NCBI GenBank assembly: GCA_030428385.1
Contig: JAUIDY010000060.1
Location: 1-37,121 of the forward strand
Length of the DNA: 37,121 nt
Direction of reading: 5' to 3'
Origin: Rhodothermia bacterium
GTDB taxonomy: Bacteria; Bacteroidota; Rhodothermia; Rhodothermales; JAAAOL01
Shown here: positions 8,598-21,511 of the stretch, in pieces
How the letters are laid out: each line of letters begins with the position of its first letter
How positions within the stretch are numbered: position 1 is the stretch's first letter
The notes under the pieces: generated by a model
What the model saw: only the letters and a program-made list of their open reading frames with translations
Database searches by the model: none
What the model was told of the DNA's origin: nothing
Program-made: the position numbers and the translations under genes

Positions 8598-11165
8598 TCA
8601 GGATTTTTTGCGCCTACGTCCCCCTCCTTTCTTTGCTTTTCGGGCTGCCAAAAGTTCAACGGCCTCCTCCATGGTAATGGCTTCAGGTGCGCGCCCTTTG
8701 GGCAGCGAGGCATTGGTGCGTTGGTGTTTCACATAGGGGCCATATCTGCCCTCCCAAACTTCCACTACCTCACCCGTCTCTGGGTGCTGCCCAATAACCC
8801 GGAGGGCTGAACTTTTTTTGTTTTTTGCGGCAAGCAGCGCAAGGGCACGCTCCAAGTCGACGGAAAAGATATCGTCCGAAGCCGTCAGGGAAGCAAAGGT
8901 GCGGTTGTGCTGCACGTAAGGACCATAGCGGCCAATATTTGCCTTGATAACCTGGCCATCATCTGGATGCGTTCCCAGGGTACGGGGCAACGATAGCAAT
9001 TGAATTGCTTGATCAAGGGTAACTTCGTCCGGCCCTAGGTTTTTGGGCAAGGACATTCGCTTTGGCTTTTTCTCATCGTCATCACCCAGTTGCACATAGG
9101 GCCCATAAGGCCCCTCCCGGACCAAGATCGGGAGGTCGGCATCGGGATGAATGCCGAGCACATGATCAGGGGCCTCAGCGGCTTGCAAAAGCTCAAGAAT
9201 CTTCTCTGGAGAAAGATCTGCGGGGAGTGCCCCGTCTGGCACGGAGGCTGTCACTTTCTCTCCTTCGATTTCCCCTTCGGCATAAGGGCCGTAGCGACCT
9301 ACCCGCACGACAAATTCGCCCCACTGGGGAAATGAGATTGTAGAGATCGAACGAGCGTCGATTTTGTCAAGTGCTTCTTCCACTTTGGGTTCAAGGCCGG
9401 CATCTCCTGCATAAAAATTACGCAGGAAAACGGTTGGTTTGCGTTCTCCTGCCGCTATGTCGTCGAGGATGCGCTCCATGTCAGCGGTGAAACCCACATC
9501 CACCAACTGCTCGAACTGAGCTTCAAGTAAATTTGTAGTGGCAAAGGCCGTGAATGTGGGGACCAACGCCCGCCCATCCCGTGTCACGTAGCCACGATGC
9601 TCGATGGTATCAATAATCGAAGCGTAGGTGCTTGGTCGGCCGATGCCTTCCTTTTCGAGCACTTTAATCAATGTCGCCTCCGTGTAACGGGCTGGAGGCT
9701 TGGTTTCATGCCCAACCGACTCAACGGACTTACATGTTGGCGTATCGTCTTTTTTTAGCTCAGGAAGCGGGTTATCCCGGTCTTCCAATGCAGCGTCAGG
9801 ATCATCACTACCTTCCACATAGGCCCGGAAGAAGCCGGGGAATTCTATGGTTTTACCACTGGCCCGGAACGTGGATATTTCATCTCCTGCACCTGCTTCA
9901 ATTTGTGCGGTAACCAATCGCAAGCGGGCATCGGCCATCTGAGTAGCCACCGTCCTTTTCCATATGAGGTCATAGAGCCGCGCTTCCATTCCACTCAGCT
10001 TCAGTTCGTCGGCCGTTTTCATTGCCGTACCCGCAGGACGAATTGCTTCGTGGGCCTCTTGGGCGTTCCGTACCGTCCCAGAGAACACGCGGGGTTTGGG
10101 GCTGAGAAAGTCGTTTCCATATCGTTCCCCTACGGTCCGCCGTGCAGCATCCACCGCCTCCTGCGAAAGGTTGGTTGAGTCGGTCCGCATATAGGTGATA
10201 AACCCGTTCTCGTACAACTTCTGCGCAACTTGCATGGTGCGCCGTGCCGAGAGGTTGAGCTTTCGACTGGCTTCCTGCTGCAGGGTTGAGGTAATAAACG
10301 GTGCGTACGGCGACCGCTTCTGCTGCCGGATGTTAACATCCGAAACACGCCACGGGGCACCAGGCAACGTTTCTGCCAGGTCTTTTGCCTTTGCTTCGCT
10401 GAGAAGCAGCACATCTTTCCCAGCCTCTAAGCCGTCTTTCAGCATGCCCGTGTCGGGGTCGAAATCGCGCCCGGTCGCCAGACGAATACCCGCATAGTGG
10501 GTCATGGTGGCTTCGAAATTCTGACCCTTCTCCCGCAGGATTGCTTTTAAGTCCCAATAGCTAGCCGGAACGAACGCAATCCGTTCTTTCTCCCGCATAA
10601 CCAGCAACCGCACCGCCACGCTCTGTACACGCCCAGCCGACAGCTTCGGGGCAATCTTTTTCCACAACAGGGGCGAGAGGGTATAGCCTACGAGTCGGTC
10701 AAGCACCCGCCGGGTTTCCTGCGCATCCACCAGGCTCGCATCAATTTCACGGGTGTGGTCCAGGGCCCCCAAAATGGCTTCGCGGGTAATCTCATGGAAT
10801 ACCATCCTCCGCACCGGGACCTTCGGCTTGAGGACTTCCAAAAGATGCCATCCGATAGATTCTCCTTCTCGATCCTCGTCAGTGGCGATGTACAGTTCGT
10901 CGGCTTCCTTGAGCGCCGCCTGCAGTTCCTTGACGATTTTCTTCTTGTCTTTGGGAACGACGTAGATCGGTTCGAATCCATTCTCCACCTGCACGCCGAG
11001 CCGCGCCCACGGCTTGTTTTTCAGTTTCGCCGGAATCTCCGAAGCCGAGGCTGGCAAATCTCTGACATGCCCCATGCTGGCCTCAATGCGGTAGGTATCT
11101 TTCGGTAAAAAACGTCGGATGGTTCGGGCTTTGGTGGGAGATTCTACAACAACCAATCGCTTCAT
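8598..11165 (-). CDS. topA: DNA topoisomerase I (type IA)
   Basis: 855 residues. The Toprim domain occupies the first 120 or so residues ('VVVESPTKARTIRRFLP', acidic triad D-E-D-R-E at about 96-100). The catalytic tyrosine is Tyr325 in 'NGFITYMRTDSTNLS', and 'EKEGIGRPSTYASII' is also conserved. The enzyme relaxes negatively supercoiled DNA by cutting one strand. The C-terminus has four copies of a topoisomerase C-terminal repeat marked by G-R/P-Y-G-P-Y (at about residues 590-840) and ends in a basic tail rich in Lys and Arg. I see no CxxC zinc ribbons, unlike E. coli TopA; Actinobacteria and many other phyla also use such repeats. ATG at 11165 is divergent from ppdK. Confidence 0.97.
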   Translation of the reverse strand: MKRLVVVESPTKARTIRRFLPKDTYRIEASMGHVRDLPASASEIPAKLKNKPWARLGVQVENGFEPIYVVPKDKKKIVKELQAALKEADELYIATDEDREGESIGWHLLEVLKPKVPVRRMVFHEITREAILGALDHTREIDASLVDAQETRRVLDRLVGYTLSPLLWKKIAPKLSAGRVQSVAVRLLVMREKERIAFVPASYWDLKAILREKGQNFEATMTHYAGIRLATGRDFDPDTGMLKDGLEAGKDVLLLSEAKAKDLAETLPGAPWRVSDVNIRQQKRSPYAPFITSTLQQEASRKLNLSARRTMQVAQKLYENGFITYMRTDSTNLSQEAVDAARRTVGERYGNDFLSPKPRVFSGTVRNAQEAHEAIRPAGTAMKTADELKLSGMEARLYDLIWKRTVATQMADARLRLVTAQIEAGAGDEISTFRASGKTIEFPGFFRAYVEGSDDPDAALEDRDNPLPELKKDDTPTCKSVESVGHETKPPARYTEATLIKVLEKEGIGRPSTYASIIDTIEHRGYVTRDGRALVPTFTAFATTNLLEAQFEQLVDVGFTADMERILDDIAAGERKPTVFLRNFYAGDAGLEPKVEEALDKIDARSISTISFPQWGEFVVRVGRYGPYAEGEIEGEKVTASVPDGALPADLSPEKILELLQAAEAPDHVLGIHPDADLPILVREGPYGPYVQLGDDDEKKPKRMSLPKNLGPDEVTLDQAIQLLSLPRTLGTHPDDGQVIKANIGRYGPYVQHNRTFASLTASDDIFSVDLERALALLAAKNKKSSALRVIGQHPETGEVVEVWEGRYGPYVKHQRTNASLPKGRAPEAITMEEAVELLAARKAKKGGGRRRKKS

Positions 11166-11508: not shown

Positions 11509-14151
11509 ATGGCTGACACTAAGTACGTCTACCGCTTTGGCAACACCAACACCGACGGCGACCGCTCGATGAAAGAGTTGCTCGGCGGCAAAGGCGCCAA
11601 CCTCGCCGAAATGGGCAGCATTGGCCTGCCCGTCCCTCCAGGCTTCACCATCACCACCGAAACCTGCAAGCAGTTTCTCGACCTCGGCGAGGCATGGCCG
11701 GAAGGGCTGGACGAGCAAGTAAAGGCGGGGATCGCCCACATTGAAGACGAGATGGGCCTGAAGTTTAATGACCCCAATAATCCTCTTCTCGTCTCCGTTC
11801 GCAGTGGTGCCGCCGTTTCGATGCCGGGCATGATGGATACGGTCCTCAACCTCGGCCTTAATGATGTGGCCGTGCAAGGGCTCGCCAAGGCCATGGGCAA
11901 CGAACGCTTTGCCTACGACGCCTACCGCCGTTTCATCGACATGTTTGGCGATGTGGTCATGGGTGTCCACCACGAACATTTCGAGCACGCCATCGACAGC
12001 CTGAAGCAGGAGCGCGGTGTGGAGCATGACACCGAGCTCAGCACAAAGGACCTGAAAGAACTGGTGGATCGCTACAAAGCCATCTACCGGAAGCACACAG
12101 GGCATATGTTTCCCTCGGATCCGGTTGAGCAATTACGTTTTGCGATCAACGCGGTTTTCCTTTCATGGAATAGCTCCCGTGCGATCAAGTACCGCCGTAT
12201 CAACCGCATCGCCGGGCTGATCGGTACGGCCGTGAACGTGCAAGCCATGGCGTTTGGAAACATGGGCGACGACAGTGGAACGGGCGTCCTGTTCACGCGC
12301 AACCCCTCGACAGGAGAAAAAGAGCTGTATGGCGAATTCCTCGTCAATGCGCAGGGGGAAGATGTGGTGGCCGGGATCCGAACGCCGGAGCCCATCGCTG
12401 GCATGGCGAACGTCTTCCCAAAGGCATACAACGACCTTGTAGATGCGACCAAGCGCCTGGAGTTGCACTACAAGAACATGCAAGACATCGAATTCACCGT
12501 TCAGCGAGGCCGCCTCTTCTTGCTCCAAACCAGGAATGGCAAACGTACCGGCACAGCGGCCATCCAAATTGCTGTGGACATGGTCTCGGAAGGGCTGGTG
12601 AAGAAAAAAACCGCCGTTCGTGACCTCGTCGAGCCAGGACACCTCGATCAACTGCTCCATCCTCGTTTTCGTGACGAAACCTCGTATAAAAGCGACGTGA
12701 TTGGGACTGGGCTACCCGCTTCTCCGGGGGCTGCCGTCGGACAGGTGGTCTTTAGCGCCGATACTGCTGAAGAATGGCGTGAAGAAGGCAAAAAAGTCAT
12801 CCTCGTTCGCATCGAAACCAGCCCTGAGGATGTGGGCGGGATGGACGCCGCCGAAGGTATTCTTACTTCGCGCGGTGGCATGACGAGTCACGCCGCCGTG
12901 GTGGCACGCGGTTGGGGCAAGCCCTGCGTGGCTGGTTGTGGGGACATCGTCATAAACTACAGAAACAAAACCTTCACCAATGGCGAAGTCACGATCCATG
13001 AAGGGGAATGGCTTTCGCTGAACGGTTCTACTGGAGAAGTTATTCTCGGCCAACAAGACCTGGTCGCTCCCGAGTTGAGTGGCGGGTTCGCTACGTTTAT
13101 GGAGTGGGCCGATGAGTTCAGGACGATCAATGTACGTGCGAATGCTGATGCACCGGCTGACGCACGACAGGCCATCGAGTTTGGTGCTGAAGGTATTGGG
13201 CTTTGCCGCACCGAGCACATGTTCTTTGAAGGCGACCGCATCCAGGCTGTACGCGAAATGATCCTCGCTGGCTCGGAAACCGAACGCCGCGCCGCCCTCG
13301 CGAAGTTGCTCCCTTACCAGCGCGATGACTTTGAAGGTCTCTTCCGTGAGATGGCGGGCAAGCCTGTAACCATCCGCCTCCTCGACCCGCCGCTGCATGA
13401 GTTCCTTCCGCATGACCCTGAAGGCAAACGCCAGATGGCCCAGTCACTTGGCGTGACATTGGAAGAAGTACAAGCCAAAGTTGATTTCCTCGACGAATTT
13501 AACCCCATGCTGGGTCACCGCGGATGTCGATTGGGTATTGTGTACCCGGAAATCACGGAGATGCAGGCACGTGCTATCCTTGAAGCTGCGGTGGTCGTGG
13601 CCGAAGAAGGAAAAACCGTGCTGCCCGAAATTATGGTTCCGCTGATCGGCACGCTCGAAGAATTTGCCGACCAGAAGGAGCACATCAAGGACACGGCAGA
13701 AGCGGTGTTTGCTGAAAAAGGCAAACGCATCGAATATCTCATCGGGACGATGATTGAGATCCCGCGTGCCGCGCTGATCGCTGACGAAATTGCGCAGGAA
13801 GCCGAATTTTTCTCGTTCGGCACCAACGACCTGACGCAGATGGGCTTCGGCTACAGCCGCGACGATGCAGGCAAATTCTTGCCCTATTACACCGAAAAAG
13901 GCATCCTCCCGGACGACCCCTTCCAGGTGCTCGACCAAAAAGGGATCGGGCAACTCGTGAAGCTCGGCACCGAACGTGGACGCTCTACTAATGCTTCCCT
14001 CAAGGTAGGCGTCTGTGGGGAACACGGCGGAGAGCCAAGTTCCGTCGAGTTCTTCTTCAAGACGGGCCTCAACTACGTTTCCTGCTCGCCTTTCCGCGTA
14101 CCGATTGCGCGCCTGGCAGCAGCACAAGCCCAGTTGCGCTCAGAAGCCTAA
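11509..14151 (+). CDS. ppdK: Pyruvate, phosphate dikinase
   Basis: 880 residues, the standard PPDK length. N-terminal ATP-grasp domain: '[20 protein letters not shown]' (about 25-44), '[20 protein letters not shown]' (about 96-115). The swivelling phosphohistidine domain has the catalytic His461 in '[20 protein letters not shown]'. The C-terminal PEP/pyruvate barrel shows '[12 protein letters not shown]', '[13 protein letters not shown]' and '[11 protein letters not shown]' with its active-site Cys. It interconverts ATP + phosphate + pyruvate and AMP + diphosphate + PEP, linking glycolysis and gluconeogenesis. The gene stands alone: divergent from topA and closed by a strong terminator. No regulatory-protein (PDRP) gene is in the window. 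Confidence 0.98.
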
Positions 14152-14173: not shown

Positions 14174-14205
14174 AAAGGGGCATGGAAATCCATGCCCCTT
14201 TTTTT
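14174..14205 (+). terminator. Rho-independent terminator after ppdK
   Basis: A perfect 12-bp stem (AAAGGGGCATGG at 14174-14185 pairing with CCATGCCCCTTT at 14190-14201), a 4-base AAAT loop and a T-run from 14199 to 14205, starting 23 bases after the ppdK stop codon. This is a textbook intrinsic terminator. It ends 34 bases before the next ATG, so the downstream gene must have its own promoter or depend on read-through. Confidence 0.93.
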
Positions 14206-14239: not shown

Positions 14240-15973
14240 ATGAGTTGGATTTTTGGATGTGTTGGCGACCATCTACAGGCAGATGTGCGTGCGGGGCTAT
14301 CTTTTCTAAACCAACGCGTAAACGATCATTCAAAAAGTCCAACTTTTGATATTACCTGGGGAGGGCTTCCTGAAACAAATCATGCTGGTCCATGGGAGTG
14401 CCCTCAGTGCAAAAGCGGCGGATGGGTGGTTGTTGGCGTTGGGCTGCACGTTCTCGGAACCAGGTGCGAAATCCTATCGACGACCCAGTGGCAGGCGTTT
14501 TTCGAGAAGCGTATCGTCAATCTGGTTGATTTAGATGGGCATTTTGTGGCAAGTCGCTGGTGCTCCTGTAAATTCGAGGCCTGGACCGACCCTTTAGGTG
14601 TTCGAACGCTGTATTTCACCAAGAAACGGGATCACCTCTACGTTTCAACCCGCCTCGACTGGCTTGCCCAAAGTACCGACCATACGAGCATTAATTGGGA
14701 AGCCTTTGGTGCGCATTGGCTGGCATTTAACCAGTTTTCTTCCGAGAGCCTTGTTGAAGGGATTGATCGACTGGGCGCTGGCGGGCACCTGGTTTGGGAC
14801 CTTCACACACTAGAGGTATCCCATAATCCCTGGCACCCAGTACCCCTATCCAACGTTACTCCCGAGGATTTCCTTGGCACCCTAAAGACCTTCCTTCTTC
14901 CAGCCGATAGAAGCGTAAGTCTGGGCCTGTCTGGTGGACTTGACTCCCGCCTTCTGCTCTCTCTTGGAGCTGATGCCCCCTCCCTGCAGGCACACTCCTT
15001 TGGGTCAACAGCACATCCCGATGTAAAGCTGGCTCAATCCGTTGCGGCTTCTGTCAACTGTTCGCATAGGATCTACCACGAACCCGTACCTGATGCCAAA
15101 GCGTGCCTCGACCTAACAGCTGAACATGTCGCCCAAACGCAGGCTGTATCAAGCGCTTCATCCTCCCTTGGCTTGCGCTATTATCCTTCTCTCTACAAAG
15201 CAGGAAATATTATCGTTGATGGCGGTTTTGGCGAAGTGGCACGAAGACAGTTTATGAACCGGCTGCTCCGCAAAAACAAAAATGCACTCCTTGCTGGAAA
15301 CGTCGACGCTATTGTGCCACATGTTCTTTTTTCTCGCGCCGACGTCTTCTCACACGACGTCAATCACGCAATGAGGGAGGGGCTCAAAAAGCAAATCAGA
15401 CGTTTTCTGGACGACGTGGTTAACACCGAGGGGCTTGGTCCTGAAATGATTGTAGATCTCTGGGGGGTACGCGCGAGACTTCCAAACTTTTTTGGCTACG
15501 AACAATCCCGGCTGGATAGACTCTGTGTTTCATATATGCCTTTTGCCCAGCCCTCTCTCTTAAAGCTTTTGTTTAACCTACCCCTCTCATCGCGCCAAAA
15601 TGGGCGGCTCTTCCGCTTTGCCATCAGGAAGAATACACCACAACTCGCGCGACTTCCACTTGTAAAAGGAGCCCGAACCTACCCTTTTCGTCTCGGCCCT
15701 GTTGGAGCTTTTGCGTGGACTAAACTGGCGTCAGTTCTTTTCAACCAGAAGCTACACACCAGCCGATACCAATTTGTGCAGGCCGTCCTGCCACTACTCC
15801 CCGAGATAGCAAAAACGGCGGCCGAGCAAACCAACTTATTCAACCCAAAAAAAATCGACTTTCTCCTCTCAAGGTATAAAGCCGGACATCATGAGTACGA
15901 AGGTGCCATCGACTGGTGGCTAGCCTTTGAATTATGGCGTCGTTCCCTTACTTCACCAGAGTCGGTTTCATGA
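14240..15973 (+). CDS. Asparagine-synthetase-like protein without the catalytic N-terminal cysteine
   Basis: 577 residues. The N-terminal half has the class II glutamine-amidotransferase fold of AsnB: it begins MSWIFGCVGDH and later reads 'LVDLDGHFVASRW' and 'WTDPLGVRTLYF', typical GATase-II strands. The start MSWIFG lines up with the MCGI(F/V)G of AsnB, so the essential Cys2 is Ser. The C-terminal half has the ATP-pyrophosphatase loop SLGLSGGLDSRLLLSLG (about 227-243, PP-loop SGGLDS) and a weaker second site 'DGGFGEVARR' in place of the usual GEGADE-type motif. It can probably adenylate a carboxylate but not release ammonia from glutamine. Lasso-peptide cyclases and beta-lactam synthetases have this architecture, but so do many uncharacterised proteins. 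ATG 14240 is chosen because it gives the conserved start; the frame is open upstream. It faces a transglutaminase-like gene. Confidence 0.8.
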   Translation: MSWIFGCVGDHLQADVRAGLSFLNQRVNDHSKSPTFDITWGGLPETNHAGPWECPQCKSGGWVVVGVGLHVLGTRCEILSTTQWQAFFEKRIVNLVDLDGHFVASRWCSCKFEAWTDPLGVRTLYFTKKRDHLYVSTRLDWLAQSTDHTSINWEAFGAHWLAFNQFSSESLVEGIDRLGAGGHLVWDLHTLEVSHNPWHPVPLSNVTPEDFLGTLKTFLLPADRSVSLGLSGGLDSRLLLSLGADAPSLQAHSFGSTAHPDVKLAQSVAASVNCSHRIYHEPVPDAKACLDLTAEHVAQTQAVSSASSSLGLRYYPSLYKAGNIIVDGGFGEVARRQFMNRLLRKNKNALLAGNVDAIVPHVLFSRADVFSHDVNHAMREGLKKQIRRFLDDVVNTEGLGPEMIVDLWGVRARLPNFFGYEQSRLDRLCVSYMPFAQPSLLKLLFNLPLSSRQNGRLFRFAIRKNTPQLARLPLVKGARTYPFRLGPVGAFAWTKLASVLFNQKLHTSRYQFVQAVLPLLPEIAKTAAEQTNLFNPKKIDFLLSRYKAGHHEYEGAIDWWLAFELWRRSLTSPESVS

Positions 15974-16013
15974 GACGTCCCGGTCCTCGAACACGACAAC
16001 CCCTAACGGCTCG

Positions 16014-16700
16014 TTAGGCTGGCATCGGAGTACGATGAACAACGTTTGCACCTGCTTCATACAGGGTTGCCTTTCCTGACCCGACATACGCTTCAGGACA
16101 ACGCCATTTTTCTCGTAGAAAATGCCCGGTGTAGAGATACCGTGTAAAATCATGTCCCACGGAGACTTCGGGTAGGTAATGGAGATGAACGTGATGCCAA
16201 GGACGGCACATTTGAGATTTGCAGGGCACGACAGGGTCAAAGAGGAAGCGTTCACCCTCCTTTTCGAAATGGACCCAGGCATGGGCAGCCGGCTCCTCAC
16301 AAGGAACGGACCACCATCCCACCACGAATTCGGCTTCGAACCCCATCCGGACTAACTTGCGCCACGTCCATAAGGCAAAGTCTTCACAATCTCCTTTTTG
16401 CAGCACTTCAAATAAGCGTGGATGCTGCCAATAGTCTTCGGTTTGAAATAAATCGTGATCCCTCACATACTCACATGTCAGCAACCAGTCCTTCAACTCA
16501 TGTATCGAGGAGATGGGCACCGTACTTTCACCTTCGAAGTACCAGGCAAACTCGTGTTCCGCCCCCAATCCGTACCGACACATGGGGACTGCAAAAGGAA
16601 ACCGCCGCCAGGGATTGGTGGGAGAAACGGAGCGGAGAAGAAGCCGCCTGACAGGGCGAAGAAGAGACCGTAGCAATCTTTGCACGAGCAGTGTGCGCAA
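16014..16700 (-). CDS. Transglutaminase-like cysteine protease
   Basis: 228 residues if the TTG at 16700 is used; the first ATG (16583) would give 189 residues and keeps the whole domain. The catalytic triad of the transglutaminase fold is visible: Cys in 'LQKGDCEDFALWTWRKLV', His in 'PAAHAWVHFEKEG' and Asp in 'RFLFDPVVP'. The GDCEDFA motif is typical of bacterial transglutaminase-like cysteine proteases; lasso-peptide B2 proteases share the same fold but have a different Cys motif. The N-terminal 35 residues upstream of the ATG are Arg/Leu-rich and may be untranslated. The gene is convergent with the Asn-synthetase-like gene, 40 bases apart, and divergent from the sigma-factor gene. The substrate is unknown. 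Confidence 0.75.
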   Translation of the reverse strand: MRTLLVQRLLRSLLRPVRRLLLRSVSPTNPWRRFPFAVPMCRYGLGAEHEFAWYFEGESTVPISSIHELKDWLLTCEYVRDHDLFQTEDYWQHPRLFEVLQKGDCEDFALWTWRKLVRMGFEAEFVVGWWSVPCEEPAAHAWVHFEKEGERFLFDPVVPCKSQMCRPWHHVHLHYLPEVSVGHDFTRYLYTGHFLREKWRCPEAYVGSGKATLYEAGANVVHRTPMPA

Positions 16701-16923: not shown

Positions 16924-17535
16924 TTGTGTGTATCACCAACGAACAACTGGACATTGAACAATTCGAGTTTCCCGCTCTTGCCCCCGGACGACTCCTTCGA
17001 GCAGTGGAGCCGACGCCTTCAGTCTTCGGACCAGCAGGCGTTTTCGGAATTGTTTGATGCCATGCATGTAACCCTGCTGCGCTATGCTTGGCGGTTTACG
17101 AGTGACGAAGAAGCCGCTCGTGATGTCGTTCAAGATGCTTTTTTGAAGCTTTGGAACATCCGAAAGGAAATTGACCCGAAACGGTCACTGAAAGCGCTCC
17201 TTTATACCATGGTGCGCAACCTTTCGCTGAACCACAACCGGGCAGCACAACATACCAACGGTGTCTTGCCGGAGCACGACTTGTATGATCATCATCCAAG
17301 TGCCGAAGAACACTTCGATGCGAGCATGCTAGACTCTTACCTCCGCAGGTGCATTGAAGAAATGCCTGAACGCAGACGCGAAGCTTTTGTCCTCAGTCGT
17401 TATGAAGGGCTGAGTCACGAAGAAATCGCAAACATCATGAACCTGACACCACGAACGGTAAATACCCATATTGTTCTTGCTCTAAAGGATTTGCGGAGCC
17501 GCCTTCAAGCGCTTCAACCACACTCGGCCTCATGA
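16924..17535 (+). CDS. ECF RNA polymerase sigma factor, FecI type
   Basis: 203 residues from a TTG at 16924. Region 2 spans about 35-100 ('AFSELFDAMHVTLLRYAWRF', 'VVQDAFLKLWNIR'), and region 4 about 145-195 ('MPERRREAFVLSRYEGLSHE', 'EIANIMNLTPRTVNTHI'), the helix-turn-helix that reads the -35 element. No ATG or GTG occurs in frame before region 2; the first ATG is in helix 1 of region 2, so a TTG start (16924, 16954 or 16978) is needed. The stop codon overlaps the FecR start (ATGA), so the two proteins are translationally coupled. By family it should transcribe the downstream receptor and possibly the secreted protein after it when FecR relays an envelope signal. Confidence 0.92.
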   Translation: MCVSPTNNWTLNNSSFPLLPPDDSFEQWSRRLQSSDQQAFSELFDAMHVTLLRYAWRFTSDEEAARDVVQDAFLKLWNIRKEIDPKRSLKALLYTMVRNLSLNHNRAAQHTNGVLPEHDLYDHHPSAEEHFDASMLDSYLRRCIEEMPERRREAFVLSRYEGLSHEEIANIMNLTPRTVNTHIVLALKDLRSRLQALQPHSAS

Positions 17536-18503
17536 AGCAAAGCTACAAACATCCCCTTCCTCCACCCATTCGTTCGGCCATCGAAGCCGAGCCGATGAAG
17601 GAACATGCTGAGTTAAAACGTATGTGGGACCTTGCAGGTCTTGCATTTCCTCCTCCTCCATCGGAGGCACGTTTTAAACAGCTTGGTGCGGAAATTTGGA
17701 CCAACCTTGAATCGGCGATTCAGCCGGCACCACACCGAGTGGACCGCGTAGCGACGCGCCCTGCACTGCGGTTGGTACGCCCGCAAACCATGCGCTGGAT
17801 GGCCCTGGCTGCTTCTTTTGCCTTGCTTGCGGTGGTTGGTCTTTCCTTATGGCTACAACCCATCACGGTTTCGGCTCCTGCGGGAGATATGGTTGCCGTT
17901 ACGTTACCCGATGGCTCTGAGGTAACGCTCAATAGCGGAGCAACCGTAACCTACGGACGCCGTTTTGGGGAGACTACCCGTGCGGTTGCACTCACGGGTG
18001 AAGCTTTCTTCGATGTTACAAAAGCCTCCACGCCTTTTATCGTGGAAACGTTTAATGGCGCGACCACGGTGTTAGGGACCGAATTTAATGTCCGTGCTTG
18101 GCCCGATGATTTAGACGCTGCCACACAAGTCTCCGTTGTTTCTGGCGTCGTCCGCCTGGCTTCTTCTTCTGGTTCCTTTGTTACCCTTACAGCCGGTGAA
18201 GCCTCCACCCTCTCCCTTGATGCTTCTTCACCGACAGCCCCTTCATCTGTAGAAACCGAGCACGTTCTTGCGTGGCAGCACGATGGATTTAAATTCACCA
18301 GTACACCACTGGGAGTCATTTTAAACGAGGTAGAGCGTCGGTTTGACATCACTATTCACGTGACCGATGAAGCGCTTCTTAGCGAGCCCACCGACATATT
18401 GAAAGAAAAGTCCCTTGGTCCGGAAGAGATCCTGCGCGATATTAGTGAGTACAATGGATACGCGTTTCGCGCTGTGGATGGGGGCTTCGAACTCTACCGC
18501 TAG
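17532..18503 (+). CDS. FecR-family anti-sigma factor
   Basis: 323 residues. An N-terminal cytoplasmic part of about 88 residues is followed by one membrane segment ('WMALAASFALLAVVGLSLWL', about 89-108) and a periplasmic FecR domain: 'VTLPDGSEVTLNSGATVTYG', 'RAVALTGEAFFDVTK' and 'TVLGTEFNVRAW'. The last 65 residues ('TPLGVILNEVERRFDITI', 'EKSLGPEEILRDISE') are the STN-like C-terminal domain common in Bacteroidota FecR proteins. It should hold the sigma factor inactive and interact through its periplasmic part with the receptor's STN domain. The start overlaps the sigma-factor stop by four bases; a terminator follows the gene. Confidence 0.92.
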   Translation: MKQSYKHPLPPPIRSAIEAEPMKEHAELKRMWDLAGLAFPPPPSEARFKQLGAEIWTNLESAIQPAPHRVDRVATRPALRLVRPQTMRWMALAASFALLAVVGLSLWLQPITVSAPAGDMVAVTLPDGSEVTLNSGATVTYGRRFGETTRAVALTGEAFFDVTKASTPFIVETFNGATTVLGTEFNVRAWPDDLDAATQVSVVSGVVRLASSSGSFVTLTAGEASTLSLDASSPTAPSSVETEHVLAWQHDGFKFTSTPLGVILNEVERRFDITIHVTDEALLSEPTDILKEKSLGPEEILRDISEYNGYAFRAVDGGFELYR

Positions 18504-18533
18504 TCGGTTCAGTTTAGCTACTGATTTTCGAGC

Positions 18534-18571
18534 AAAGCCTGTGTTGTCCATCGGATAGCACAGGCTTTTTT
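18534..18571 (+). terminator. Rho-independent terminator between fecR and the TonB receptor gene
   Basis: AAAGCCTGTG (18534-18543) pairs perfectly with CACAGGCTTT (18559-18568), with a T-run to 18571. The intervening sequence can extend the stem (TGTCC/GGATA with one G-T pair around ATC). It starts 31 bases after the fecR stop, so the sigma/anti-sigma pair can be terminated before the receptor gene. The receptor therefore needs its own promoter or read-through. Confidence 0.85.
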
Positions 18572-18655
18572 CGGTATCCGTGGAAAGAGTCTCCTTCGAA
18601 TGCCGCAACGCGCTTCCGCCTATCTGTATCGACTCCGGCGCCCCTCTTGGCAAGC

Positions 18656-21511
18656 ATGGGTTTTCGTTCTCGGTGTACGCGTTGCGTCCTTACTCTTTTT
18701 CTCATTTCAACGGGTTGTGCCTTTTTTACAGGTACTGCCGCCTCCCAGTCCCAGCTCCTTGCTTCTTCGGACAGCCTTGGGCTACGCCCCTTGCGCGACG
18801 TCCTTTATCAGGTCCAATCCTCTACTGGAATTGACCTCTTTTACGACGCTGGTCTGATTGATGGGAAATATTCCGGCGTCGTTTCGCAACAGAATGCCCG
18901 GTCACCAGAAGAAATGCTCCAACATGCCTTGTTTGGGACGGGTTTGTATTCTTTCAGGCTCACTTCAGGGACTTTCGCCATCAAGGCCATCCCACCCAAG
19001 GGCGAGGCAACGGGAAGTGTACGCGGTCTGGTGTTCGACGGCACCACTGGTTCCTCCCTTCCGAATGCTCATATCTGGCTGTTCGCAGACTCAGATCGAG
19101 GGGCGGTATCTGATGCCCGTGGTCAGTTCTATTTTGATCGGCTCCCAGCAGGAGAATACGTCTTACACATTAGCCACCTGGGATTTGACCAGATGACGGC
19201 CCTCACGGTGGTTTTACCCACCGAGGAATCAACCCTCTCGATCGCGCTAACACCTCGACCCGTTCCGATTAGCCCCATTATCATCGAAGGAATTCAGGCC
19301 CCCGCCCGCGTTATTTTCCTGCGAGATGATCGATCAGAAGACGAACTTGCGCCTGCCCGAGGATATGGAACGGCCGATGCCTTGCGAGGTCTAGGCGAAA
19401 TCATGGGGGTACGAACAGGAGATGCCACTGCCGACATACACATTCAGGGAGGTGAAACGGGCGAACATCAATTTCAATTAGATGGTGTTCCAGTCTATGA
19501 ACCGGTTCATCTCCGAGGATTACTAGGCGCCTTCAATCCATTTGCCCTTGAGCGGATTACCGTGCACAAGGCAGGTTTTTCGGCCTCCGAAGGCAGCCAA
19601 ATTTCGGGAGTCATACGGGCGGAACATGCCCTGACCTCTTCCGATGGACGGGTCCTCGACATGCAGATTGACCCGTTGAGCATCAACGCTCGCCTTACCG
19701 GAATTATTGGGGATCCAGAAAAGCTGCATGCTCAGGTGATGGCTGCGATGCGTACCAGCGTCTGGGATGTGTACTCTCCCAATCGCCTAGACAGCTTGTT
19801 CGAGAGTTGGAATGCCCCAGACCCTTTTCTTCTGCGTGCATCCTTGTTAGCCGCTCAAGAAAGTGGACGGGTACCCATCATTGGGGCCGAGCGTCAAATC
19901 CCAGATTCTTCGTGGGCCCGAAACCCACCTGAACTTGGATTTAGAGATATTCATGGGGCCTTCCGCCTACACCAGGAACGTCACCGGTCTTTGCATGGCT
20001 CGTTTTATCACAGCCAAAACAACATGCAAGCGGATCGCTTCTTTGCACGCCCGGAAGCAGATACCATCTTTGCATCGTTGGATCAATATCAGTGGTGGAA
20101 TACCAATGCTCAAATTAACTATAGTGGGCTGTTTGGTTCGCGGACATTTATGTTGGCCCGTGCCCGGACTAGTACCTATCGCTTATCCCATGATTACCTT
20201 TCCCTGAATAACCGAGAGTTCGTCGCCCTGCCTGGTGGTACCATTATCGTTAGTGAACTTAAAGACGTAGATGATGGCAACTATATCTCCGAACAAGCCG
20301 CAGAGATTGAACTTGATTATAGCCTGAGGGCGCATGAATTCAGTGGCGGCCTTGAAGTCGTTCGCACCCATCATCGCTTCTCTTTGTCAGATGTTTACCT
20401 GACCACCATTAACAACGAAGCCACCAATTGGCAGCTCAATTCGTTTTTCGAAGATGTTTTTCATCTCGGCCCGTGGCAGTTCACTGCTGGCTCCAGGTTC
20501 TCTTTTGTCCCACAAAAACAATCCGTGTTTGCCGAGCCTCGCTTTGAGCTTCGTACCGATATGGTCACCGGGGAGCGAGGTACTTTTACGGCACGCCTTG
20601 CAGGGGGGCTTTATCGTCAGTTTGTCCACCAGTTCGATATCAGCAGCGTAAGTCCGAGCGCGTTGTTACCGGGCGTTCGATTTTGGATGCCTATAGACTC
20701 GACGGTTTCCCCGGCCAAAGCCTATCACTTGGCCGCCGATCTTTTGTGGCAACCCACCCCTACCCTTTCGATTCGGCTAGAAAGCTACTACAAACATCAA
20801 CCGCACATTCTGGCTATCAACTACCCTGCTTTGATAGGACAGGAAGAGGCTGCTCCTATACCTACAAGCAGCGACGTGATTACGCTTTCCAATCAAGTTG
20901 ACTTTCTCCGCAACAGTCGGGGGTATGCCTTAGGGAATGCACTTGCTATAGAACACCTGTTCGAAAGACTTCGAATTGGTGCCCGGTACGAATATAGTTT
21001 GGCACAACGCGAATATGCGTTCGAAGGCGAAGACGATGTTAAGGTATCACTTGAAGTAGCTCCCTGGAACGTCACTCATGGCCTGAATTTGTCCTTTGAC
21101 ATTCTGCCTCGTCCAGGTATGATAACCACCGTACGCTGGAGAGGAGGCTGGGATAGGCGGTGGGGATACCGAAAGGCTTATTACGACTTCCTGCCTACGA
21201 ATTCCTACTCTCTTTCGCGGTACGACTGTGATGCCGACTTAAATACCTGTGACATCAACCTATCAAACCCATCGGCTCATAAACTTCCCCCCTTTCGCCA
21301 GCTGGATCTAGGAATTGCATATGCACTTCCTCTCAGTCAGGCGGCCCTTCAATTTCGGTTAGACGTGCTTAATGTGTTCAATCGAGAAAATATTGCAGAC
21401 TGGAGCATTCGGGCCACGGAAGACGATGACCGCATGTTGGTGTATGAAAATGATGTTCCTCGGGGTTCGCTTCCACGTACCATCTCATTGGCCCTTCGGC
21501 TAAAATGGTAA
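18656..21511 (+). CDS. TonB-dependent outer-membrane receptor with STN signalling domain
   Basis: 951 residues from ATG 18656 (an in-frame TTG lies three codons upstream). Signal peptide about 1-30. Residues about 43-110 are an STN (secretin/TonB N-terminal) domain ('PLRDVLYQVQSSTGIDLFYD', 'ARSPEEMLQHALFGTGLYSF'), the part that signals to FecR. A carboxypeptidase-regulatory-like beta-sandwich follows at about 120-200 ('SVRGLVFDGTTGSSLPNAHI', 'GEYVLHISHLGFDQM'), then a plug domain ('ADIHIQGGETGEHQFQLDGV', 'FNPFALERITVHKAGF') and a long beta barrel ending in ALRLKW with a terminal aromatic residue. It should import a bulky ligand using TonB energy and report it through FecR to the sigma factor. 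The ligand is unknown; no SusD-like partner follows. Confidence 0.93.
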   Translation: MGFRSRCTRCVLTLFLISTGCAFFTGTAASQSQLLASSDSLGLRPLRDVLYQVQSSTGIDLFYDAGLIDGKYSGVVSQQNARSPEEMLQHALFGTGLYSFRLTSGTFAIKAIPPKGEATGSVRGLVFDGTTGSSLPNAHIWLFADSDRGAVSDARGQFYFDRLPAGEYVLHISHLGFDQMTALTVVLPTEESTLSIALTPRPVPISPIIIEGIQAPARVIFLRDDRSEDELAPARGYGTADALRGLGEIMGVRTGDATADIHIQGGETGEHQFQLDGVPVYEPVHLRGLLGAFNPFALERITVHKAGFSASEGSQISGVIRAEHALTSSDGRVLDMQIDPLSINARLTGIIGDPEKLHAQVMAAMRTSVWDVYSPNRLDSLFESWNAPDPFLLRASLLAAQESGRVPIIGAERQIPDSSWARNPPELGFRDIHGAFRLHQERHRSLHGSFYHSQNNMQADRFFARPEADTIFASLDQYQWWNTNAQINYSGLFGSRTFMLARARTSTYRLSHDYLSLNNREFVALPGGTIIVSELKDVDDGNYISEQAAEIELDYSLRAHEFSGGLEVVRTHHRFSLSDVYLTTINNEATNWQLNSFFEDVFHLGPWQFTAGSRFSFVPQKQSVFAEPRFELRTDMVTGERGTFTARLAGGLYRQFVHQFDISSVSPSALLPGVRFWMPIDSTVSPAKAYHLAADLLWQPTPTLSIRLESYYKHQPHILAINYPALIGQEEAAPIPTSSDVITLSNQVDFLRNSRGYALGNALAIEHLFERLRIGARYEYSLAQREYAFEGEDDVKVSLEVAPWNVTHGLNLSFDILPRPGMITTVRWRGGWDRRWGYRKAYYDFLPTNSYSLSRYDCDADLNTCDINLSNPSAHKLPPFRQLDLGIAYALPLSQAALQFRLDVLNVFNRENIADWSIRATEDDDRMLVYENDVPRGSLPRTISLALRLKW

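Follow-up and report, generated by a model that had tools for sequence, protein, structure and literature searches.

The gene at 14240..15973 (+ strand; ATG at 14240, stop codon ending at 15973) of a 37,121-nucleotide stretch of Rhodothermia bacterium DNA (assembly GCA_030428385.1, contig JAUIDY010000060.1; the whole stretch is called the window below, and its genome G000) encodes a 577-residue asparagine synthetase (AS)-like protein, P0001, which we believe is probably a stand-alone amide ligase that no longer hydrolyzes glutamine. Judged by alignment with its relatives, P0001 belongs to a glutaminase-dead family that is patchily held across the phylum, mostly as a stand-alone gene, and that goes without a name; a search of the literature found no description of it. 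Enzymes of the AS superfamily use the PP-loop domain to adenylate a carboxylate, and the acyl-AMP so formed is then attacked by an amine; AS-like enzymes lacking a glutaminase are known from antibiotic gene clusters and from clusters for ribosomally synthesized and post-translationally modified peptides (RiPPs). P0001 would likewise activate a carboxylate as acyl-AMP, converting ATP to AMP and pyrophosphate (PPi), and the amide would form when a nitrogen nucleophile attacks; because there is no glutaminase, that nitrogen would have to be supplied as free ammonia or as an amine of the substrate. A stand-alone branch found in many lineages, outside recognized biosynthetic clusters, would point to an unrecognized amide in ordinary metabolism.

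Active-site residues and distribution of the family

An earlier note on this DNA, made from its letters, had observed that the protein starts MSWIFG, so that the glutaminase nucleophile of AsnB, Cys2, is replaced by Ser, and that the SGGLDS PP-loop is intact. The translation of the open reading frame (ORF) and the family alignment agree on both counts: the N-terminus reads MSWIFGCVG, the codon in the Cys2 column is 14243..14245, and the PP-loop occupies residues 231-236 (14930..14947) within an intact SGGLDSR at 231-237. The Pfam model Asn_synthase (PF00733) matches P0001 at 29.4 bits, above its cut-off of 21, which places the protein in the AS-like, PP-loop superfamily; no GATase_7 domain appeared in the Pfam scan, no NCBIfam model scored over its cut-off, and a PDB search with the single sequence gave no match.

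The active-site columns were compared in an alignment of 20 family members, eight lasso-type cyclases (six over the cut-off of NF033535; L165 and L166 below it) and two canonical AsnB proteins from the same order. At this divergence the placement of N-terminal columns is uncertain, and profile alignments, the match to CarA included, start only at about residue 90. The Cys2 column holds Ser in 17 members and Gly in three, Ser in all eight lasso-type proteins, and Cys in both AsnB proteins, so the Ser of P0001 is not a chance substitution; a larger, 55-row alignment, in which some rows are fragments or duplicates, has 36 Ser, 11 Gly, one Ala, one Gln, six gaps and no Cys. Since some members carry Gly at this position, Ser is unlikely to serve as a replacement nucleophile. 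The losses extend to the rest of the glutamine site, with gaps in the columns of AsnB Arg53 and Ile56 in 20 of 20 members, and with the Asn of the Asn-Gly-Glu motif kept in none of the 20 and its Glu changed to Gly in all. The Ser, Gly, Gly, Asp and Ser of the PP-loop, five of its six positions, are identical throughout, and the conserved synthetase Lys (Lys476 in P0001, 15665..15667) is present in 19 of 20. In other words, as far as aligned columns can tell, the family has lost most of its glutamine site, and the PP-loop for ATP and the Lys of the synthetase half remain.

Compared with solved structures, the family profile matches 1q15 best (CarA, which we take to be carbapenam synthetase; E 4.3e-8); asparagine synthetases and beta-lactam synthetase rank lower, with 1jgt in fifth place (E 5.3e-5). 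Carbapenam and beta-lactam synthetases are PP-loop synthetases that do not hydrolyze glutamine. What the family shares with them is this profile match to PP-loop synthetase structures, although the alignment spans only profile positions of about 90-280 at very low similarity, and no beta-lactam gene cluster was recognized in the neighborhoods of the AS-like genes, which are partly annotated. Among the papers found, the nearest case is PesC, an AS-like nitrile synthetase that uses glutamine or ammonia (PMC13060819).

Turning to AsnB itself (TIGR01536), the profile alignment covers 231 columns at 98.6% probability, as expected of one superfamily, yet the family of P0001 has no Cys2, has lost the glutamine-site motifs and has an altered synthetase motif. 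Might the protein simply be an ammonia-dependent asparagine synthetase that has replaced AsnB? In G000, which is 97.65% complete, the only PF00733 matches at E 1e-3 are the P0001 gene and one that reads by eye as TilS, so no canonical AsnB was found there. Replacement of AsnB would account for this, but P0001 scores 34.7 bits with TIGR01536 against a cut-off of 267.1, and the motif after the PP-loop reads DGGFGE where AsnB has GGxGxDE. Moreover, two genomes (G015, 99% complete, and G035, 98%) lack the AS-like gene and also gave no match at E 1e-20 when searched with NF033535, a model that at this threshold widely picks up AsnB-type proteins; since these bacteria do without both, we think an asparagine-synthetase role highly unlikely.

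Among 99 relatives, P0001 has matches in 29 genomes at E <= 1e-3 and in 25 of them at E <= 1e-40; the latter are called strong below. A profile of 18 members finds the family in at least 35 of 296 genomes across the phylum at E <= 1e-20, a lower bound because at most four candidates were scored per genome, and a profile of 20 members detects it, at E <= 1e-30, in 36 of the 195 class genomes sampled. The search of plasmids for relatives gave no match, and none of 50 candidate stretches on viral contigs encodes one. A distant member occurs in an Ignavibacteriae metagenome-assembled genome (locus L033, 8962-11416), where the AS-like gene, its N-terminal domain shortened, comes 7 nt after a gene for an AmiA-like amidase (Pfam, 169.9 bits), within a run of short-spaced genes.

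The linkage to ppdK and other gene neighborhoods

Directly upstream of the AS-like gene, on the same strand, lies ppdK, the gene for pyruvate phosphate dikinase (PPDK; 11509..14151), preceded by topA on the opposite strand (8598..11165; TIGR01051, 778 bits), a gene that recurs beside this locus. The order of ppdK and then the AS-like gene, on one strand and with no gene between them, is found in 17 of the 25 strong genomes, that of the window among them. This count takes as one gene the two contig pieces of G001, the first of which follows ppdK and the second of which faces a transglutaminase-like gene. The gaps measure 3-34 nt in 14 of the 17 and 61, 88 and 99 nt in G006, G000 and G001, respectively. 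Identification of ppdK is by TIGR01828 in the window (1381 bits) and in G076 (1374 bits), and by tblastn homology in the others. As to the other eight genomes, G014 and G048 carry the AS-like gene elsewhere, the G020 locus breaks off at the end of its contig, and the members in G002, G036, G038, G066 and G077 are distant ones that have no ppdK alongside.

Ten genomes were searched for corresponding loci lacking the AS-like gene, and eight such loci were obtained. In five (G015, G065, G082, G041 and G034) the next gene after ppdK is one for an acyl-CoA dehydrogenase, both the AS-like and the transglutaminase-like gene being absent from the interval; in the remaining three ppdK is present without either gene, and the downstream gene is different or unseen. 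Thus the AS-like gene is gained or lost on its own, in loci that are otherwise alike, and such absences provide natural pairs of genomes, with and without the gene, in which to search for its product.

PPDK, in its ATP-forming direction, uses AMP, PPi and phosphoenolpyruvate. By consuming the AMP and PPi released by the ligase, it could pull the amide-forming reaction forward and recover ATP, and we suggest that recycling of this kind would be a plausible reason for the recurring, lineage-bound linkage to ppdK. The fullest form of this idea, in which glutaminase-free ligases throughout the phylum make an amide-containing molecule and those of the Rhodothermales are co-expressed with a PPDK that returns AMP and PPi to ATP at the cost of phosphoenolpyruvate, is speculative and we hold it to be rather doubtful.

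Several observations weigh against a glutaminase-free ligase or against its coupling to PPDK. Some concern the protein: the Asp of the AsnB SDTE motif is still Asp in 10 of 20 members, its placement being uncertain; where AsnB and the lasso cyclases have an Asp in the synthetase half, 19 of 20 members have Glu (Glu332 in P0001, 15233..15235), so that handling of Mg and PPi may differ; an alignable N-terminus is missing from some distant members of the 55-row alignment; and the structure prediction for P0001, made from four sequences, is too poor for use (mean pLDDT 49.4). Others concern the linkage, which is seen in one order only and is absent at G014 and G048; members outside the order have no gene of the ppdK cluster beside the AS-like gene. 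Finally, the gap between ppdK and the AS-like gene of the window contains a hairpin at 14174..14201 (+ strand; 12-bp stem, loop of 4, T run; z -4.6), and a comparable one occurs in G001 (z -4.3). By their form these hairpins resemble intrinsic terminators, and since one separates the two genes in both genomes, ppdK and the AS-like gene are probably transcribed apart in the family to which the window belongs.

The change of Asp to Glu, the largely missing glutamine site and the single absences from otherwise alike loci might also be taken to mean that the protein is degenerate, retaining the fold and no synthetase activity. Yet the PP-loop and the Lys are conserved over deep divergence, and a stop inside the matched stretch occurs in one of the 25 strong genomes and in two of 36 match rows of the phylum sample. 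We therefore consider a degenerate protein quite improbable and continue to favor an active amide ligase.

The AS-like genes of G014 and G048 (family f14; loci L039 and L042), which lie away from ppdK, group in the tree with that of G076, a genome of family f15, and this suggests transfer of the gene between the two families. Outside the order, the genes adjoining family members include, by our own reading of their sequences, those for a tetratricopeptide repeat (TPR) lipoprotein, a peptidase M28-like protein, a peptidase T-like protein and a cation-efflux-like protein, among others. The TPR-type lipoprotein gene (c9) was considered as a partner, since it overlaps the AS-like gene in seven of eight loci of f18, a family of the same class. 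It occurs in 78 of the 195 genomes of the class; 53 of these belong to f18, and because an AS-like match is missing from 44 of the 53, the adjacency is better regarded as ordinary synteny. A small membrane-protein-like gene (c18) beside some members was likewise considered and set aside.

The transglutaminase-like neighbor

On the other side of the AS-like gene, on the minus strand (16014..16700), lies a gene for a 228-residue transglutaminase-like protein; the two genes are convergent and their 3′ ends are 40 nt apart. The protease that the earlier note described there, with its motifs GDCEDFA, AHAWV and FDP, is thus present as reported. Its catalytic residues, Cys105 (16386..16388), His140 (16281..16283) and Asp155 (16236..16238), are invariant in seven of seven homologues, in keeping with the transglutaminase-like superfamily, and the Pfam model Transglut_core (PF01841) matches at 24.4 bits, above the cut-off of 23; five of the seven homologues match it at E 0.1. 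No NCBIfam model scored over its cut-off for this protein.

The nearest known proteins appear to be the LapG and Peptidase_C93 (BTLCP) cysteine proteases. The Peptidase_C93 model matches all seven homologues at E 0.1, and a profile of the neighbor matches 4u65, named a putative cystine protease (E 8.9e-8), and 4fgo (E 4.4e-7), whose group includes the LapG of Legionella. The protein differs from LapG in falling short of both cut-offs, with 25.9 bits against 27 for Peptidase_C93 and 25.7 against 320 for the LapG equivalog NF045674, and in having no signal peptide apparent by eye. A structure predicted from two sequences was too weak (mean pLDDT 50.2), and the Foldseek search made with it, to which we attach little weight, gave nothing below E 0.012, the best match being TglA, followed by LapG. 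On these profile scores the neighbor resembles LapG and Peptidase_C93 more closely than the B2 proteases of lasso-peptide clusters.

Clear homologues of this protein occur in seven of the 99 relatives (an eighth match, in G053 at E 7.7e-4, was left out) and in three of the 296 phylum genomes at E <= 1e-6. The gene is adjacent and convergent to the AS-like gene in G000, G001, G076 and G079, which represent two families; it lies away from it in G007 and G020. In G008, which has no AS-like match, it sits among genes for a uridine kinase, birA and a YaaA-like protein, and since it is held there among other genes, it is evidently retained independently of the AS-like gene. The transglutaminase-like genes of G076 and G079 share one position, flanked by the AS-like gene on one side and that for acyl-CoA dehydrogenase on the other, and ancestral adjacency followed by repeated loss would therefore be the simplest account of its distribution.

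The earlier note had raised the possibility of an undescribed peptide- or amide-forming pair, in which the protease would cut a peptide or protein and the synthetase would then install an amide or isopeptide bond on the cleaved product. The arrangement of the genes lends this some support, as do the invariant catalytic triad and the co-occurrence of the two genes: the AS-like gene is found in six of the seven genomes with the protease and in 19 of the 92 without it (Fisher p 9e-4, with kinship ignored). Yet the note had named homologues without a conserved neighboring transglutaminase gene as evidence that would refute its idea, and such homologues exist: adjacency is seen in only four of the 25 strong genomes. 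The genomes with adjacency lie dispersed over the AS-like tree, requiring four changes where at least three are forced, and 500 of 500 shuffles were as low; the protease occurs in three of the 296 phylum genomes, against 35 for the AS-like gene; it lies elsewhere or alone in the three genomes named above; and, because the genes are convergent, they do not form one transcript. No precursor-like gene was seen by eye among the surrounding short ORFs (>=20 aa), nor any obvious leader or core, no precursor model having been run. Thus, adjacency and convergence hold, the evidence for a functional pair is thin, and we judge such a pair unlikely; the transglutaminase-like gene is an occasional neighbor, not a required partner.

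Beyond the transglutaminase-like gene and divergent from it, at 16924-21511, the window encodes an extracytoplasmic function (ECF) sigma factor, a FecR-like regulator and a TonB-dependent receptor (Pfam). Homologues of all three also follow the two genes in G001.

Comparison with lasso-peptide loci

The earlier note had likened the two proteins to the C and B2 proteins of lasso-peptide clusters. Such an identity would make P0001 a cyclase for a lasso peptide or another RiPP, served by a B2 protease, and a few observations fit: Ser at position 2 is common to all eight lasso-type cyclases compared, the lasso models NF033561 and NF033535 weakly match 16 and two of 18 family members, respectively, and the B2 model PF13471 matches three of the seven homologues of the transglutaminase-like neighbor at E 0.1 (best 0.0016). 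Both proteins of the window, however, fall far below the curated cut-offs. P0001 has no match to NF033535 at E 1 (cut-off 525 bits), so that identification as a lasso cyclase was rejected, and reaches 28.6 bits with NF033561 against a cut-off of 300; its neighbor reaches 13.1 bits with PF13471 against 26. The window genome as a whole has no match to PF13471 at E 1e-3 and none to NF033535 at E 1e-20.

The genuine lasso loci tested from this order do not resemble that of the window. The NF033535 cut-off is passed in 10 of the 296 phylum genomes, all from this order, at 526-847 bits (one as a sum of pieces). The B2 model was run on two of these loci as positive controls, and it found a B2 protein in both (83.0 bits at L160, where a PqqD protein scores 68.1 bits, and 78.5 bits at L161), whereas the window locus has none; at L155, L156, L157, L162 and L163 the ORFs of short flanks were listed. 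Lasso cyclases share with P0001 the Ser at position 2, the PP-loop and the conserved Lys. They differ in the glutaminase half, the L155 protein, the one scanned, keeping a full GATase_7 domain (97.9 bits) where P0001 shows none, and in the N-terminal HRGPDG motif, whose His is found in 0 of 20 family members. In G007 and G011 a lasso cyclase gene and an AS-like family member are present together, so the two are distinct genes. It follows from the alignment that Ser2 by itself does not separate the two groups. The likeness to a lasso C and B2 pair is accordingly not borne out, and we regard a RiPP cyclase as most improbable. What survives of the earlier proposal is an AS-like enzyme with an intact PP-loop and no glutaminase nucleophile, for which forming amides with ammonia or some other amine is still our best guess; the proposed kinship with lasso cyclases does not survive.

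The lasso-type loci themselves (L155-L164, from 10 Rhodothermales genomes) are several, some with neighbors that we read as HPr-kinase-like and ABC-transporter-like. Elsewhere in the window genome there are 12 listed PqqD matches, all on contigs other than that of the window and at least eight of them on contigs C118 and C181 (L177, G000:C118:5000-17505; L178, G000:C181:1-9000). Here tandem proteins have a PqqD domain at the N-terminus, a stretch like RRRFVRKIGLVGSLTLLLP and a tail rich in Ser, Cys and Asp. On C118 they lie beside a SagD-type YcaO protein (270 bits) and a SagB dehydrogenase (159 bits), both over their cut-offs, and C181 encodes a kinase-like protein related to HprK, which at 67 bits stays below its cut-off. 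From its domain content, this looks like a RiPP locus of the thiazole/oxazole-modified microcin (TOMM) type, whose putative precursors would carry their own leader resembling PqqD or a RiPP recognition element (RRE).

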